From: Kiritimatiellia bacterium
GTDB taxonomy: Bacteria > Verrucomicrobiota > Kiritimatiellia > PWTM01
Assembly (NCBI GenBank): GCA_026417735.1
Contig: JAOACR010000021.1
Coordinates: 62,001-126,000, forward strand
DNA: 64,000 nt
Direction of reading: 5' to 3'
In this document: piece by piece, positions 53,186-59,963 of the stretch
Layout of the letters: every line of letters begins with the position of its first letter
How positions within the stretch are numbered: the stretch's first letter is position 1
Notes under the pieces: model-generated
Told to the model about the DNA's origin: nothing
The model's database searches: none
Seen by the model: the letters and a program-made list of their open reading frames with translations, nothing else
Made by a program: the position numbers and the translations under genes

Positions 53186-53476
53186 CGGGTACCTCCATCA
53201 GTTTTCGTCAATGACAGCGTGGCGAAGAGTGATGCAAAACGCAAGGCTCTCCGTGCTCGGGCGGAGCATGCGGAGCGGGTTGCGGGAGGGACACGCTTGC
53301 CTGCCACCAGGATCAGACGCTGGCTCGGGGGATCGCGAGACCGGCGACGGCGAAGAGGGATGTCCAAGGGTTGGAGGTGAGAGGGTCTGGGCCGTCCTTC
53401 CGTTGGAGGCGACACGAGACGAGCCGACCAGCCACCAGTTGCAGGTGCGGCGAGCGGCACGGTATAAGGCACGGTG
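53186..53476. other. divergent intergenic region before the ABC importer operon
   Basis: About 290 bases without a protein-like frame, between the DUF1080 start and the start-region duplication described next. It should hold promoters for both directions; I could not fix their boxes. Confidence 0.4.
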
Positions 53477-53548
53477 GTGAACGGGTTGCGTGGTGGGCAG
53501 CAGGACCGCCGGGACATAGCCGCAGAGGCTGTTCGTGCGGTGACGTGA
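53477..53548 (+). CDS. possible 23-residue upstream ORF made by duplication of the next gene's start
   Basis: GTG 53477 opens 23 codons beginning MNGLRGGQQDRR and stops at TGA 53546-53548, overlapping the GTG 53545 of the binding-protein gene by four bases (GTGA). Its first 12 codons copy the start of that gene (MNGLRGEQQDRR) with one change. It may be a fortuitous by-product of a tandem duplication, or a leader that couples translation; no clear ribosome site is seen (only AAGG ten bases upstream). Confidence 0.3.
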   Translation: MNGLRGGQQDRRDIAAEAVRAVT

Positions 53549-53580
53549 ACGGGTTGCGTGGTGAGCAGCAGGACCGCCGG
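53477..53580 (+). repeat. two direct copies of a 36-base unit, 68 bases apart
   Basis: Copy 1 (53477-53512) and copy 2 (53545-53580) both begin GTGAACGGGTTGCGTGGTG and end GCAGCAGGACCGCCGG; only base 20 differs (G versus A). Each copy begins with a candidate GTG start codon. The 68-base period shifts the frame, so only copy 2 leads into the binding-protein gene. Confidence 0.85.
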
Positions 53581-55782
53581 CGCTGGGCTGGCATCGCGGC
53601 GGGGGCGGTGGTGATTGCGGCGACCGGTCTGGTGCTCAGCCGCTGCGACAACTCGCCCCATCCGCCAGAGGAGGAGGGGACGGCGACGCTCTACTTCGCG
53701 GTGGGCGCTCCGTTCAATAAACTGGATCCGGCCACGTCATATTACTCCCACGAGGCCGAGGTGGTGGACAACGTTTACGAGCCCCCCTTTGAGTACCATC
53801 ACCTGCGTCGGCCTTACCAGCTGCAGCCGCTGGCGGCGGCGGAGATGCCGTCGCCGGTGTTTCGTGCTGCGGACGGTCGCGTGTTGGAGGGGGACCCGCC
53901 GCCGGAGGATGTGGCGCGCGTCGAGTACACGATTCGAATCCGGCCCGGCATGTTTTATGCGGACCACCCCTGTTTTGCGACGAACGCGGCGGGAGAGCCC
54001 ATGTATCGCGGCGTCAGGGCGCGCGACGTCCGGCGCTGGCGAACCCCCTGCGACTTTCCCGTCCTGGGCACCCGGGAGGTGGTGGCCGCCGACTATGTGC
54101 GGGGCTTGCGACGGCTCGCCGACCCCCGGCTACCGTGCCCCGTCTACGCAACGTTCAAACGCGCAATTCTCGGCTTCGGAGAGTACAGCGATGCGCTTGC
54201 CCGTGAGCTGGCTGCGGAGCGGGCGCGGCGAGCGGCGGAGGGTGCTGGCGAGGACGAGGACCGCCGTCCGATCGTGCTGGACTATCTCGCAACACCGTGC
54301 GCCGGCATTGAAGTGATTGACCGGTACACGTTCCGCCTCGTGCTCGCCCGCAAATATCCTCAGATTCTGTACTGGCTCGCGATGCACTTTGCCGCACCGA
54401 TTCCGGAGGAGGCGCTGCGCTTTTATGCGGAGCCCGCGATCGCCGCCCGTCAGATGGATTTGAACCGGTGGCCGGTTGGTAGCGGTCCGTTTTTTGTGCG
54501 GCACTGTGACCCCGACCGCCGCATTGTGCTGCAGCGGAACCCGAGATATCGGGGAGGGGTCTACCCTTCGGACGGTGCACCCGGTGATCGTGAAGCGGGA
54601 CTGCTCGACGATGCGGGCCGGCCGATTCCGTTTTTGGACCGTGTCGCGATTGTGGTGGAACGGGAGTCGATTCCGGCGTGGAACAAGTTTCTGCAGGGGT
54701 ATTACGACTACACCTATGTGACGCCGGAGGTCTTCGAGCAGACGATTCAAATGTCAGGCTCGGGCGAGGCGATCCTGTCGGACCGCATGCGGGCTCGTGG
54801 AATCCGACTGCATTCGTCGGTCGCGGCGGCGATCTACTGGGTGGGATTCAACATGGCGGACCCGGTCATCGGCGGGCTGAACGAGCGCGCGGCGGCGCTG
54901 CGGCGCGCGATCTCGACGGCGCTAGACTACAACGAGTATCTCGACATCTTTTTCAACGGTCAGGGGCGGTCGGCGCAAGGGCCGATACCGCCGGGCATTT
55001 TCGGCGCGCTGGAGGGGGAGGCCGGCGTAAACCGTTGGACGGACCGGTGGGATCCGGTCGGGCGACGGCCGGTGAGGCGGCCGATTGAGGAGGCACGGCA
55101 GTGGATGGCACAAGCGGGCTGGCCCGACGGCCGGGGGCCGGACGGCCGTCCGTTGGTGCTCCATTTGGATCACGCGCTGGCGGGGGAACCGTCGTTCGTG
55201 GCGGTGTTCGAATGGATGCGGGGGCGGCTGCGGCAGCTCGGGGTTGAGCTGCGCGAACGGGGGACGGATCTGTCGCGGTATCGCGACAAGCTCGAGCGCG
55301 GTCACTTCCAGCTCTTCCGGCAGGGGTGGTTCGCCGACTATCCGGATCCCGAAAATTTTCTATTTCTGTTCTACGGGCCGAATGCGAAACTGCGTTCCGG
55401 TGGTGCGAATATCTGCAATTACGAAAATCCCGAATATGACCGACTGTTCGAGCGGATGGAGGGAATGCGGGACGGGCCGGAGCGCGCGGCGATGGTCTCG
55501 AACATGGTGGAGATTCTGCGCCGGGATGCGCCGATGTGCTGGGGGTTTCACCCGACGTTTTATGTGCTGAGCCATTCGTGGCACCGCAACGGGAAGCCTC
55601 GGGAGATGACACACAACACGCTGAAATATCAACGGGTGGACGCCGCGGAGCGTGCCCGGCGGCGGCGAGAATGGAACCGGCCGGTGGTCGCACCGGTGCT
55701 CGCGTTGGAGGCGGCCGCGCTGGCGATCGCGGCGATGTTGATCCGACGGCGGCCTCCCGGAGCGGAGACGGCAGGATGCTGA
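53545..55782 (+). CDS. oligopeptide ABC transporter substrate-binding protein (SBP family 5), membrane-anchored at both ends
   Basis: 745 residues, long for the family (about 540). A helix at 14-33 (GIAAGAVVIAATGLVLS) is followed by Arg-Cys rather than a proper lipobox, so it is likely an uncleaved anchor. The SBP_bac_5 fold runs from LYFAVGAPFNKLDPATSYYS through TPCAGIEVIDRYTFRLVL, YWLAMHFAAPIPEEAL, WPVGSGPFFVRHCDPDRRIV and YYDYTYVTPEVFEQ to FRQGWFADYPDPENFLFLFY. The C-terminus carries a second helix (VAPVLALEAAALAIAAMLI) ending in RRR, which is unusual. It heads an importer operon; its stop overlaps the first permease by seven bases. Confidence 0.85.
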   Translation: MNGLRGEQQDRRRWAGIAAGAVVIAATGLVLSRCDNSPHPPEEEGTATLYFAVGAPFNKLDPATSYYSHEAEVVDNVYEPPFEYHHLRRPYQLQPLAAAEMPSPVFRAADGRVLEGDPPPEDVARVEYTIRIRPGMFYADHPCFATNAAGEPMYRGVRARDVRRWRTPCDFPVLGTREVVAADYVRGLRRLADPRLPCPVYATFKRAILGFGEYSDALARELAAERARRAAEGAGEDEDRRPIVLDYLATPCAGIEVIDRYTFRLVLARKYPQILYWLAMHFAAPIPEEALRFYAEPAIAARQMDLNRWPVGSGPFFVRHCDPDRRIVLQRNPRYRGGVYPSDGAPGDREAGLLDDAGRPIPFLDRVAIVVERESIPAWNKFLQGYYDYTYVTPEVFEQTIQMSGSGEAILSDRMRARGIRLHSSVAAAIYWVGFNMADPVIGGLNERAAALRRAISTALDYNEYLDIFFNGQGRSAQGPIPPGIFGALEGEAGVNRWTDRWDPVGRRPVRRPIEEARQWMAQAGWPDGRGPDGRPLVLHLDHALAGEPSFVAVFEWMRGRLRQLGVELRERGTDLSRYRDKLERGHFQLFRQGWFADYPDPENFLFLFYGPNAKLRSGGANICNYENPEYDRLFERMEGMRDGPERAAMVSNMVEILRRDAPMCWGFHPTFYVLSHSWHRNGKPREMTHNTLKYQRVDAAERARRRREWNRPVVAPVLALEAAALAIAAMLIRRRPPGAETAGC

Positions 55783-56756
55783 GATACCTCGTGCGACGGT
55801 TCGCGTACGCGGTGCCGATCTTGATCGGCGTGAACCTGCTTACGTTTGCGTTATTTTTCGGCGTGCATTCCCCCGACAGCATCGCCCGCACGATTCTGGG
55901 CGACAAGCAGGTGGACGCGGAGATGATCGCACGGTGGAAACGCGAGCGCGGCTACGACCTGCCCAGGTTCTGGAATTCCGCCGAGCGGGGGATCCGGCGG
56001 ATCAGCCGGACGATTTTCTGGCAGACGAGCGTCCCGCTGTTGCGGCTCCAGCTCGGACGTTCAGACATTGACCGCCACTCGATCGGCGAGGCGGTGCTGG
56101 CGCGTATGAGCCCCTCGCTGGCGATTACGCTCCCGATGTTCCTGATCTCGCTGGTGGTGACCATCGCTGTGGCGATGCTGGCCGCGTTTCATCGCGGGAC
56201 CGCCTTCGACGCGGTGGTGCTGGTCGGATGCGTGGTGCTGATGTCGGTGTCGACGTTGTTCTACATCATCGGAGGCCAGTTTTTGTTCGCGCGCGTACTG
56301 AAGTGGTTTCCATTTTCCGGTTACGTGGCCGGTCCGGGGGCGTTGAGGTTTTTGTGGATGCCGGTGCTGATCGGGGTGCTGGCGGGGCTCGGCGGCCAGA
56401 TTCGGTTTGACCGCACCGTGTTCCTGGAGGAGATCCACCGGGACTACATTCGCACAGCACGGGCGAAGGGGTTGGGAGAGGGGGCAGTGCTGTTCCGGCA
56501 CGCGCTGAAGAATGCGATGATTCCGATTCTCACATCCGTGGTGGTGACGATTCCGTTTCTCATCATGGGCAACCTGCTGCTGGAAAACTTCTTCGGCATC
56601 CCCGGCCTCGGCAGCTACGTGATGGACGCGATCCAGCGCCAGGATTTCGCGGTGGTGCGGGCGATGGTGTACGTGGGGTCGCTGCTGTACATCGCGGGGC
56701 TGTTGATGGTGGACATCGCCTACGTGCTGGTGGATCCGCGGGTTCGGCTGAGCTGA
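55776..56756 (+). CDS. oligopeptide ABC transporter permease (DppB/OppB-like)
   Basis: 326 residues from ATG 55776. LRYLVRRFAYAVPILIGVNL is the usual OppB start, followed by a periplasmic loop, six helices, and the ATPase-contacting EAA loop YIRTARAKGLGEGAVLFRHA. LENFFGIPGLGSYVMDAIQR is the conserved C-terminal block. It pairs with the second permease to form the channel. It overlaps the binding-protein gene by seven bases. Confidence 0.92.
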   Translation: MLRYLVRRFAYAVPILIGVNLLTFALFFGVHSPDSIARTILGDKQVDAEMIARWKRERGYDLPRFWNSAERGIRRISRTIFWQTSVPLLRLQLGRSDIDRHSIGEAVLARMSPSLAITLPMFLISLVVTIAVAMLAAFHRGTAFDAVVLVGCVVLMSVSTLFYIIGGQFLFARVLKWFPFSGYVAGPGALRFLWMPVLIGVLAGLGGQIRFDRTVFLEEIHRDYIRTARAKGLGEGAVLFRHALKNAMIPILTSVVVTIPFLIMGNLLLENFFGIPGLGSYVMDAIQRQDFAVVRAMVYVGSLLYIAGLLMVDIAYVLVDPRVRLS

Positions 56757-56769
56757 GCCGGAGGCGGCG

Positions 56770-57879
56770 GTGGTCTATTGGTTCGATAATCTGGTGGTTG
56801 CCGCGCTCGTGCTGGGGGGCGTGGCGGCGGGTCGCGCGGTGCGTCGGTCTCCGCAGTGGCGACAGGCGATCGCGGAGGTCGCCCGGCGACGCGCTGCGCG
56901 CATTTCTGCGCGGATTGTGGCGGTGTACGCGTTGATTGCGCTGCTTGATAGCGTGGGATGGCATCCGCCGGCCCGAGATGCGTCCGGCGCGGTGCTGCGC
57001 GATGCGGCCGGGCGCACGGTACGGGATGCGCGGGGGCTGACGCTGCTGGATGTGCTGCTCACGCCCTGGCGCACCGCGCGCGAGAAGACATACTCTGCGC
57101 CATTCGCAACGCGGCAGTTCACGGCGGAGTTTGTGCGCGGCGTGGACGGCGCACTGGTGCGAACGCACCCTCCGCTGCGGTACCCGCGCAGGCACCCCCT
57201 GGGCACGGACCGGATCGGCGAGGACGTGTTTTACCAGGCGCTGAAGGGCGTGCGCACTGGCATGCTGCTGGGGGTGTTCACCACCCTGATTGTGGTGCCG
57301 TTCGCGCTGCTCTTCGGCCTGCTGGCCGGCTATTACGGGGGGTGGGTGGACGATGTGGTGCAGTACGTCTACACGGTGCTGGCCTCGATCCCTGCGGTGC
57401 TGTTGGTGATGGCGTTCATGGTGCTGTTCGGTCGCGGGCTTACGCAGTTGTGCGTGATTCTCGGGGTGACCACCTGGACGGGGCTCTGCCGGGTGCTGCG
57501 CGGCGAAACGATGAAACTCCGCGAGAGCGATTTTGTCGCCGCGGCGCGGGCGATGTCGGCCTCGTCCGCCAGAATCCTGTGGCGCCACATCGTGCCCAAC
57601 GTGATGCATCTGGTTCTGATCACGACGGTACTCGGCTTTTCGGGACGGGTGCTCTCCGAGGCGGCGCTCACGTACATGGGGATCGGTGTGGGGGTGGACA
57701 CCTACTCGTGGGGCCGAATGATCAACGACGCTCGGCTCGAACTGGCGCGGGATCCGGTGATCTGGTGGAAGCTGGCGGCCGCGTTTGCGGCGATGGTGGG
57801 CCTGGTGCTGCCAGCGAACGTGTTGGGGGACGCGCTGCGCGACGCGCTGGATCCCCGGCTGCGGAGCGAACCGGTGTGA
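56770..57879 (+). CDS. oligopeptide ABC transporter permease (DppC/OppC-like)
   Basis: 369 residues from GTG 56770 (GGAGG upstream). An extra N-terminal helix (LVVAALVLGGVAAG) precedes the usual first helix near residue 50, and a long periplasmic segment (60-150) follows. HPLGTDRIGEDVFYQALKGV, LLAGYYGGWVDDVVQYVYTV and the EAA loop FVAAARAMSASSARILWRHI with PNVMHLVLITT are DppC signatures. ALTYMGIGVGVDTYSWGRMI lies near the C-terminus. The stop TGA overlaps the ATPase start (GTGA). Confidence 0.9.
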   Translation: MVYWFDNLVVAALVLGGVAAGRAVRRSPQWRQAIAEVARRRAARISARIVAVYALIALLDSVGWHPPARDASGAVLRDAAGRTVRDARGLTLLDVLLTPWRTAREKTYSAPFATRQFTAEFVRGVDGALVRTHPPLRYPRRHPLGTDRIGEDVFYQALKGVRTGMLLGVFTTLIVVPFALLFGLLAGYYGGWVDDVVQYVYTVLASIPAVLLVMAFMVLFGRGLTQLCVILGVTTWTGLCRVLRGETMKLRESDFVAAARAMSASSARILWRHIVPNVMHLVLITTVLGFSGRVLSEAALTYMGIGVGVDTYSWGRMINDARLELARDPVIWWKLAAAFAAMVGLVLPANVLGDALRDALDPRLRSEPV

Positions 57880-59963
57880 CCGAGGTGCTTCGATCCGCCG
57901 ACGAGCGCGAGCAGATGGACGCGGCGGCGCCGGTCCTGGAGGTCGAGGATCTCGGCATCGAGTTTGCGAGCGAGCGGGGGCGCGTGCCGGTGGTCGATGG
58001 CGTGTCGTTCGGGGTCGGCCGGGGCAAGGTGCTGGCGCTCGTCGGGGAGTCGGGCTGTGGCAAATCGTTGACCGCGCTTTCGCTGCTGGGATTGCTGCCG
58101 CCGGGTGCGCGGATCTCCACTGGCGCCATCCGGTTTGAGGGGCAGGACCTCGCGCGGGCGGCACCGAGGGAACTGCGCGCGATCCGCGGCAATCGCATTG
58201 CGATGGTGTTCCAGGAGCCGATGACTGCCCTGAATCCGGTGCTGACGATCGGTGCACAGGTCGCCGAAGCGTTGCGGCTGCATCGCGGCCTTCCGCGTTC
58301 TGCCGCATGGCGCCGGGCGGCGGAGCTGCTGGCCGGCGTCGGGCTTCCGGACGCGGAACGTCGCTGCGTCGAATACCCTCATCAGCTTTCGGGCGGGCAG
58401 CGGCAACGCGTGATGATCGCGATGGCGATCGCGTGCGATCCGGTGCTGTTGATCGCGGACGAGCCGACCACGGCGCTCGATGTGACGGTTCAGGCGCAGG
58501 TGTTCGAACTGCTGCGGGAGGTCACGGTCCGGCGAGGGCGGGCGTTGCTGCTGATTACGCATGATTTGGGTGTGGTGTATGAGAACGCCGATCGGGTCGC
58601 GGTGATGTACGCGGGGCGAATTGTGGAGGAAGCGGAACGTGAAGCGCTGTTCAGCCGGCCGGCGCATCCCTACACGCAAATGCTGCTGCGCGCGGTGCCG
58701 GCCCGGGCTGCGCCCGGCGAGCGTCTTGCCGTGATCCCAGGTCAGGTTCCGCCGGTGGCGCGGTGGGCGGAAGGATGCCGGTTTGCGGACCGCTGCCCGC
58801 TGGCAATCGCGGAATGCCGCGCCCGCCGGCCCCCGTGGCGTGTGCTGAACGATGCCCACCGGGTGGCGTGCATCCGGGCTCCCTGCCGGGTGGGTGAGGC
58901 CCGAAACGGAGCTGGCGTACGTCGAAGTGCTTCGACCGCAGCGGAGCGTTTGCGCATCGAGCGCCTTTGCGTGCATTTTCCGTTGCGGCGCCGCATTGGG
59001 GGGCGGCGGTTGGTGGTGCGGGCGGTGGATGGCGTGGACCTCATCGTGCGCGCCGGCGAGACGCTTGCACTGGTAGGGGAATCGGGTTGCGGGAAGACGA
59101 CGGTCGGGCGCGCAGTGGTCGGGCTGGCACCGGTCACTGCCGGCGAGATCCGGTTGGACGGGGAGCGCATGCTGGGCCAGCCGTTCCATGTGCTGAAGCC
59201 GTTGCGGCGGCGCGTTCAGATGGTGTTTCAGGACCCCGCCTCAAGTCTGGATCCCCGAATGCCGGTGGGACAGGCGATCCTCGAGGGGATGGAGATCCAC
59301 CGGATCGGCCGGGATGACGCAGAGCGGCGCGAACGGGTAGCCGCGCTGCTCGAACGGGTTGGTCTGCCGGCCGCGGCGGCGAGCCGCTATCCGCACCAGT
59401 TCTCCGGTGGTCAGCGTCAGCGCATCGGCCTCGCACGCGCGCTTGCGGTGGAGCCCGAGGTGATCATCTGCGATGAAGCGACCTCCTCGCTCGACGTGAG
59501 TGTACAGGCGCAGATGTTGAACCTGTTGCGCGACCTGCAAGCCGAGCGAGGCCTTTCGTATCTGTTCATCACGCACGACCTCGCTGTGGTGCGGCATTTG
59601 GCCGATCGTGTCGCAGTCATGTACCTCGGTGAGATCGTCGAGACGGGCCCGGCCACAGAGGTGTTGGAGGCGCCGCTGCATCCCTACACCGTTGCGCTAG
59701 TCGCCGCGGTGCCGCGCATTGGGGCGGACGGGCGGCGCCGCATTGTGCTGGCGGGGGATGTGCCCTCCCCCATCGCACCACCCCCCGGCTGCCGGTTTCA
59801 CCCTCGGTGCCCCCACGCAATGGCGCACTGCCGCCTGAAACCGCCGCCGTGGTTCGGTGCCAGCGGCGATCGGAGGGCGCGCTGCTGGCTCCTCGAAGCG
59901 TCTACATCTCGGCCGCCGGACGAGCCCCCGGCCGGGAACGTCACCGTTCAGGCCGCGCAATAA
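57876..59963 (+). CDS. fused double ATPase of oligopeptide ABC importer (DppD-DppF in one chain)
   Basis: 695 residues from GTG 57876; ATG 57915 is an alternative. Two full ABC modules follow each other. Module 1: [54 protein letters not shown] and the C-terminal [15 protein letters not shown] Cys cluster. Module 2: [53 protein letters not shown] and [15 protein letters not shown]. Each module ends with the oligopeptide-transporter C-terminal Cys motif. The pair is normally encoded by two genes (dppD, dppF), here joined with a linker near residues 335-350. Confidence 0.95.

Follow-up and report, generated by a model that had tools for sequence, protein, structure and literature searches.

We identified a duplicated translation start ahead of the gene for the family-5 solute-binding protein that serves an importer of the Dpp/Opp type, where a 36-nt unit beginning with the GTG start codon occurs twice (53477-53512 and 53545-53580) and flanks a 32-nt insert, hereafter X (53513-53544). 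The dimensions of this element are those of the repeats and spacers in the CRISPR array of the same genome. We hypothesize that the likeliest origin of the 36+32+36 element is off-target spacer integration by Cas1-Cas2, an origin that we favor with some reserve. The best overall explanation, to which we assign a probability of roughly 0.57, combines a Cas1-Cas2 scar at a leaderless start with translation of the first copy and reinitiation at a GTGA junction. Coordinates refer to the window, meaning the whole 64-kb stretch of DNA that was analyzed, and all features of this locus lie on its plus strand.

The two copies are identical at 35 of 36 positions, the sole mismatch being the 20th base of the unit, and their starts lie 68 nt apart; sequence comparison thus bore out the repeat described in the first-pass annotation. 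The unit is the longest direct repeat of the window, and a search for the same repeat elsewhere found no further site at up to 3 mismatches in the genome (G000, a 3.09-Mb assembly of 24 contigs). X likewise has no second site in this assembly when up to 3 mismatches are allowed. Near-direct repeats that span 20 nt or more with a period of 30-300 are rare: only 10 were found in 2,363,262 bases of the genome, a count that leaves out the CRISPR array and low-complexity matches, and 8 of these have periods of at least 119. The two short ones are the element in the window (36 nt, period 68) and a repeat at C11:9675 (37 nt, period 66). Given its rank in the window, its uniqueness in the genome, and the rarity of such repeats, the duplication is not a chance resemblance, and because 32 unique bases separate the copies, which are not adjacent, a simple tandem duplication does not describe it either. 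The earlier suggestion of a tandem duplication leaves the unique insert and the exact CRISPR-unit size of 36+32 out of account. An assembly artefact is unlikely, judging from the mismatch between the copies, the unique insert, and the total length of only 104 bp.

To place the element in its evolutionary context, gene-start regions were lined up for this gene and seven relatives, and the promoter was compared in this gene and its five closest orthologues. Three more distant family genomes (G005, G007, and G008) also gave matches. The closest relative with a name is an 'uncultured bacterium' MAG at 84% identity, and a match at 29% is labelled Kiritimatiellae. A repeat scan found no such repeat in the start regions of any of the seven relatives, and the five close orthologues contain neither the repeat nor the insert; a comparison with related genomes had been proposed in the first-pass annotation. 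The -10 element is 8 nt from the start codon both for copy 1 and for the nearest relative, G001, and a conserved SRC motif follows the copy-2 GTG at 34 codons, compared to 33 codons in G001 by a count made by eye. Judging from these two distances, the upstream flank belongs with copy 1 and the downstream flank, including the coding body, with copy 2, and the locus has therefore gained 68 bp relative to its relatives. In another relative, G006, the upstream part of the -250 to +150 region of the binding-protein gene contains a different, unrelated direct repeat, of 24 nt with exact copies and a period of 119.

The promoter upstream of copy 1 is conserved. Its -35 element, TTGCAG (53439-53444), corresponds to a TTG hexamer located 16-18 nt ahead of the -10 element in all six orthologues, and its -10 element, TATAAG (53463-53468), is retained as TATAAG in five of the six and replaced by TAGAAT in the sixth. 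In five of the six, the start codon follows the -10 element at 8, 8, 11, 9, and 6 nt; G003 lies outside this pattern, with about 30 nt between the -10 element and its ATG. A start codon 6-11 nt past a -10 element implies an mRNA that begins at the start codon or within a few bases of it, and the ancestral gene was thus probably leaderless. By the same conserved geometry, transcription would now begin at 53474-53477, at copy 1. A strict consensus promoter scan matched no promoter at the site because it required the -10 hexamer to end in T; our promoter assignment rests on conservation.

Start modes across the genome were surveyed with a simple codon-usage caller, which yielded 806 genes on 1,162,143 bases. 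The pattern TTG-N16-19-TANNNT (or TATAAN) with a start codon 5-11 nt behind it was found 44 times, compared to 15-24 in other 7-nt bins, and in the genome-wide sample Shine-Dalgarno (SD) motifs peak 5-10 nt ahead of starts. Together, the SD peak and the excess of leaderless-like promoters indicate that the genome uses both start modes. Leaderless expression seems to be common in this lineage, judging from the excess of sigma70-like promoters 5-11 nt before starts in the same 1,162,143 bases.

The GTG of copy 1 opens a mini-ORF of 23 codons (53477-53548), whose TGA (53546-53548) overlaps the GTG of the binding-protein gene at 53545 and forms the junction GTGA (53545-53548), exactly as first read; an in-frame GTG at 53474 would lengthen the mini-ORF to 24 codons. 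Nothing suggests a function of its own for the mini-peptide. The main frame has no ATG, GTG, or TTG in frame between the promoter and 53545, which rules out an N-terminal extension of the binding protein (53545-55782; PF00496, E 8e-41), and the gene caller also starts this gene at 53545. The next gene encodes the first importer permease (55776-56756, PF00528) and overlaps the binding-protein gene by ATGCTGA (55776-55782). It is followed by the second permease (56770-57879, PF00528) and by a fused two-domain importer ATPase (57876-59963), whose start overlaps the stop of the second permease as GTGA (57876-57879). This order of binding protein, two permeases, and fused ATPase is the layout of a Dpp/Opp importer, and both permeases adjoin the binding-protein gene in five relatives, in a comparison that covered the permeases only. 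With these further junctions overlapping as well, overlap is a common feature of this operon. Copy 2 has no SD core ahead of 53545. Among 376 close same-strand gene pairs in the surveyed bases of the genome, 178 overlap as NTGA, and an SD core is missing from 90 of these; given these numbers and the other GTGA in the operon, an SD-less GTGA junction is ordinary. Ribosomes probably initiate on copy 1 and then reinitiate at the GTGA junction.

Both steps of this expression scheme have precedents. Shell et al. 2015 (PMC4633059) described small leaderless ORFs in mycobacteria that are linked through RTGA to the gene behind them and termed these 'coupled'. As in those cases, the TGA of the small ORF here overlaps the RTG with which the main gene begins, and by its geometry the promoter would place an RTG at the 5' end of the transcript; the mycobacterial ORFs differ in being supported by ribosome data, whereas ours is read from sequence and is made up of a duplicate of the gene's start together with inserted DNA. 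Huber et al. 2019 (PMC6728339) reported reinitiation at 4-nt gene overlaps, for which the need for an SD motif ranged from essential to none. The present junction is likewise an NTGA overlap of the kind in which an SD is at times dispensable, although its upstream ORF has 23 codons and is not a gene.

The size of the element points to the CRISPR system of the genome. The only CRISPR array found in the genome, on contig C10, comprises 18 repeats of 36 nt and 17 spacers (13 of 32 nt, 3 of 33 nt, and 1 of 31 nt) with a period of 68, so that the element in the window, at 36+32, has the unit size of the array (36 plus 31-33) and X has the length of 13 of the 17 spacers. The GC content of X is 0.63, compared to 0.65 for the array spacers, and its uniqueness in the genome is what one would expect of a spacer of foreign origin. 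By a hand estimate, a random repeat length of 20-50 and a period of 30-300 would hit 36 and 68 (within 1 base) about once per thousand, which over the ten near-direct repeats gives a chance of approximately 1% for matching both unit and period. The array is preceded by genes for a 1180-aa Cas9, Cas1, and Cas2, in that order, a gene set that suggests a putative subtype II-C system. Within the genus, Cas9 was found in this genome but in none of the 3 other species, one of which is represented by a genome that is 68% complete, and a search for the array repeat found it in none of the 8 other family genomes. That Cas9 and the scar are each confined to this genome within the genus is consistent with a Cas1-Cas2 origin, at small numbers. 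There are two cas1 genes in the genome, one of them on C10; the second (C4:19213-20229) lies behind a gene with a helicase-type-ATPase-like start, and no array was found in positions 1-160000 of C4.

During CRISPR adaptation, Cas1-Cas2 inserts a new spacer, which ends up with a copy of the target repeat on either side. Because the target is copied, an attack outside the array would leave a target-insert-target arrangement with lengths of 36 and 32. The locus shows a duplication of repeat length around an insert of spacer length, an empty site in the relatives, and cas1 and cas2 genes are present in the same genome beside cas9 and the array. The borders of the target carry a G on the top strand and a C on the bottom strand, and the array's own borders likewise carry one G and one C. 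The target shows no likeness beyond chance to the array repeat or to the leader-repeat junction, being equalled by random sites in 8-87% of draws; the 36-nt unit itself matches the array repeat at 13 of 36 positions, and 8% of random sites are as good. A functional two-repeat CRISPR array can accordingly be dismissed, the unit being neither the array repeat nor present in any further copy in the genome. For X, no exact protospacer was found in viral_contigs, its 20-mers gave 0, 0, and 1 matches, that single one agreeing with X at 23 of 32 positions overall, and comparisons with phages and plasmids returned partial matches only. Since two true array spacers used as controls also gave 0 protospacers, the missing protospacer of X is uninformative; the whole array gave one weak match against phages.

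Off-target integration by CRISPR integrases is known in vitro and, as cited, under overexpression. Kim et al. (PMC6895254) observed that a type II-A Cas1-Cas2 integrates in vitro, at a low level, into non-CRISPR sites across a plasmid, with G preferred at the attacked base (approximately 55%) and with events that are likely half-site; the G on the top-strand border of our target agrees with this preference and the C on its bottom-strand border does not. Leader-repeat-junction likeness, which our target does not have, is in that paper a preference and no strict requirement. Two further articles (PMC11788318 and PMC9456107) cite Nivala et al. 2018 for non-canonical integration into non-array regions. 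The element described here shares with these events an insert of spacer length outside CRISPR arrays, flanked by a target duplicated over the length of a repeat, and differs in that it is apparently natural, resides in an environmental genome, and lies at the start of a coding gene, with a putative enzyme and protospacer. Within the mostly open-access literature covered, we found no report of natural off-target integration scars.

We therefore propose, as a working model, that the Cas1-Cas2 of the Cas9-type system on C10 inserted a 32-bp fragment at a leaderless start and that the 36-bp target was thereby duplicated on both sides, so that copy 1 would have stayed behind the promoter and copy 2 on the gene. 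Transcription would then begin at 53474-53477, at or next to the copy-1 GTG, as the conserved promoter geometry suggests. The 5' GTG may be translated for 23 or 24 codons, for which the coupled ORFs of PMC4633059 offer a precedent, and the ribosome might stop at the GTGA and reinitiate on the real GTG in the manner of the overlaps in PMC6728339. As for the larger claim, that a natural off-target integration remodelled a host gene by duplicating its start and giving birth to a new, translated, GTGA-coupled small ORF, we consider the case for and against it evenly balanced.

The main competitor to this model is an ordinary short duplication with filler DNA, produced by end joining, template switching, or slippage, in which 36+32 would be an accident and the outcome for expression would be unchanged. 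We regard this as a possible but rather unlikely origin. It draws on the other short spaced direct repeats of the genome, including the 37+29 example on C11, and on the dissimilarity of the target to the CRISPR repeat or leader. X also weakly resembles the sequence after copy 2, as a degenerate duplication would; this likeness is loose, being equalled in 131 of 5000 shuffles under loose scoring and in 598 of 5000 under strict scoring, and the idea that X derives by divergence from what lies downstream was accordingly rejected, the likeness being borderline with loose scoring and not significant with strict. Against an ordinary duplication stand the exact agreement of both lengths with the genome's own array, the absence of a genomic source for X, and the long periods of most near-direct repeats.

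Two other explanations concern expression. Copy 2 might be translated independently, from its own promoter or by direct ribosome binding, with copy 1 silent, and the gene caller does pick 53545; it does so on coding potential alone, no SD core or -10-like hexamer at the right distance precedes 53545, and the conserved promoter sits 8 nt ahead of copy 1, which together make this reading improbable. More improbable still is a selected regulatory leader, in which the mini-ORF would sense or tune translation and be retained to couple the importer operon. The GTGA junction is exact, as such a leader would have it, and in the part of the genome examined there is a mild excess of leaderless-like promoters combined with small ORFs coupled by RTGA (5 of 16 genes, compared to 232 of 2222 control ORFs; Fisher p 0.02, a weak and post hoc result). 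A distinct class of leaderless RTGA-coupled small ORFs was nonetheless rejected, since promoterless ORFs peak at RTGA too (the same 232 of 2222) and the raw peak misleads because a TGA is built into every RTGA start. For the same reason coupling is cheap: GTGA brings its own TGA, any insert suffices that stays open and displaces the reading frame by 2 (modulo 3), and 8182 of 29095 random genomic spacers (28%) produced the same coupling. An attenuator or hairpin leader was rejected, as no terminator was found in the region and its RNA fold is weaker than that of shuffles (z +1.4), and a known RNA element was rejected for want of an Rfam match. Of the first-pass proposal of a leader that couples translation, the coupling remains plausible, given the promoter at copy 1 and the frequency of SD-less NTGA overlaps, while an origin as a regulatory leader finds no support, given its absence from the five orthologues, the ease with which it arises by chance, and the unremarkable fold. 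The coupling is likely a consequence, and the interest of the locus lies in its probable origin as a CRISPR-unit-sized scar on a start codon.

The proposed Cas1-Cas2 scar bears on whether off-target integration leaves lasting marks in natural genomes and affects genes, and it offers an example of a coupled small ORF that would have arisen in one step. If this origin is correct, CRISPR adaptation would supply host genomes with new upstream ORFs and start sites. Its signature, a repeat-length duplication with a spacer-length insert, can be searched for and counted across Cas-bearing versus Cas-less genomes.

A possible second case in the same genome, if the Cas1-Cas2 origin holds, is the repeat on C11 (36-37+29-30). 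This repeat of 37 nt with one mismatch and a period of 66 (37+29) occupies C11:9675-9777, an intergenic position close to where a minus-strand gene starts, and encloses an insert rich in CCA/CCG. It may be a second scar, of 36+30 plus a chance matching base, or it may indicate that short spaced duplications arise without CRISPR. Separately, intergenic near-tandem units with TGGAGGG...CGCC motifs occur from C10:10362 onward and at C9:368080, and resemble dispersed palindromic intergenic elements.
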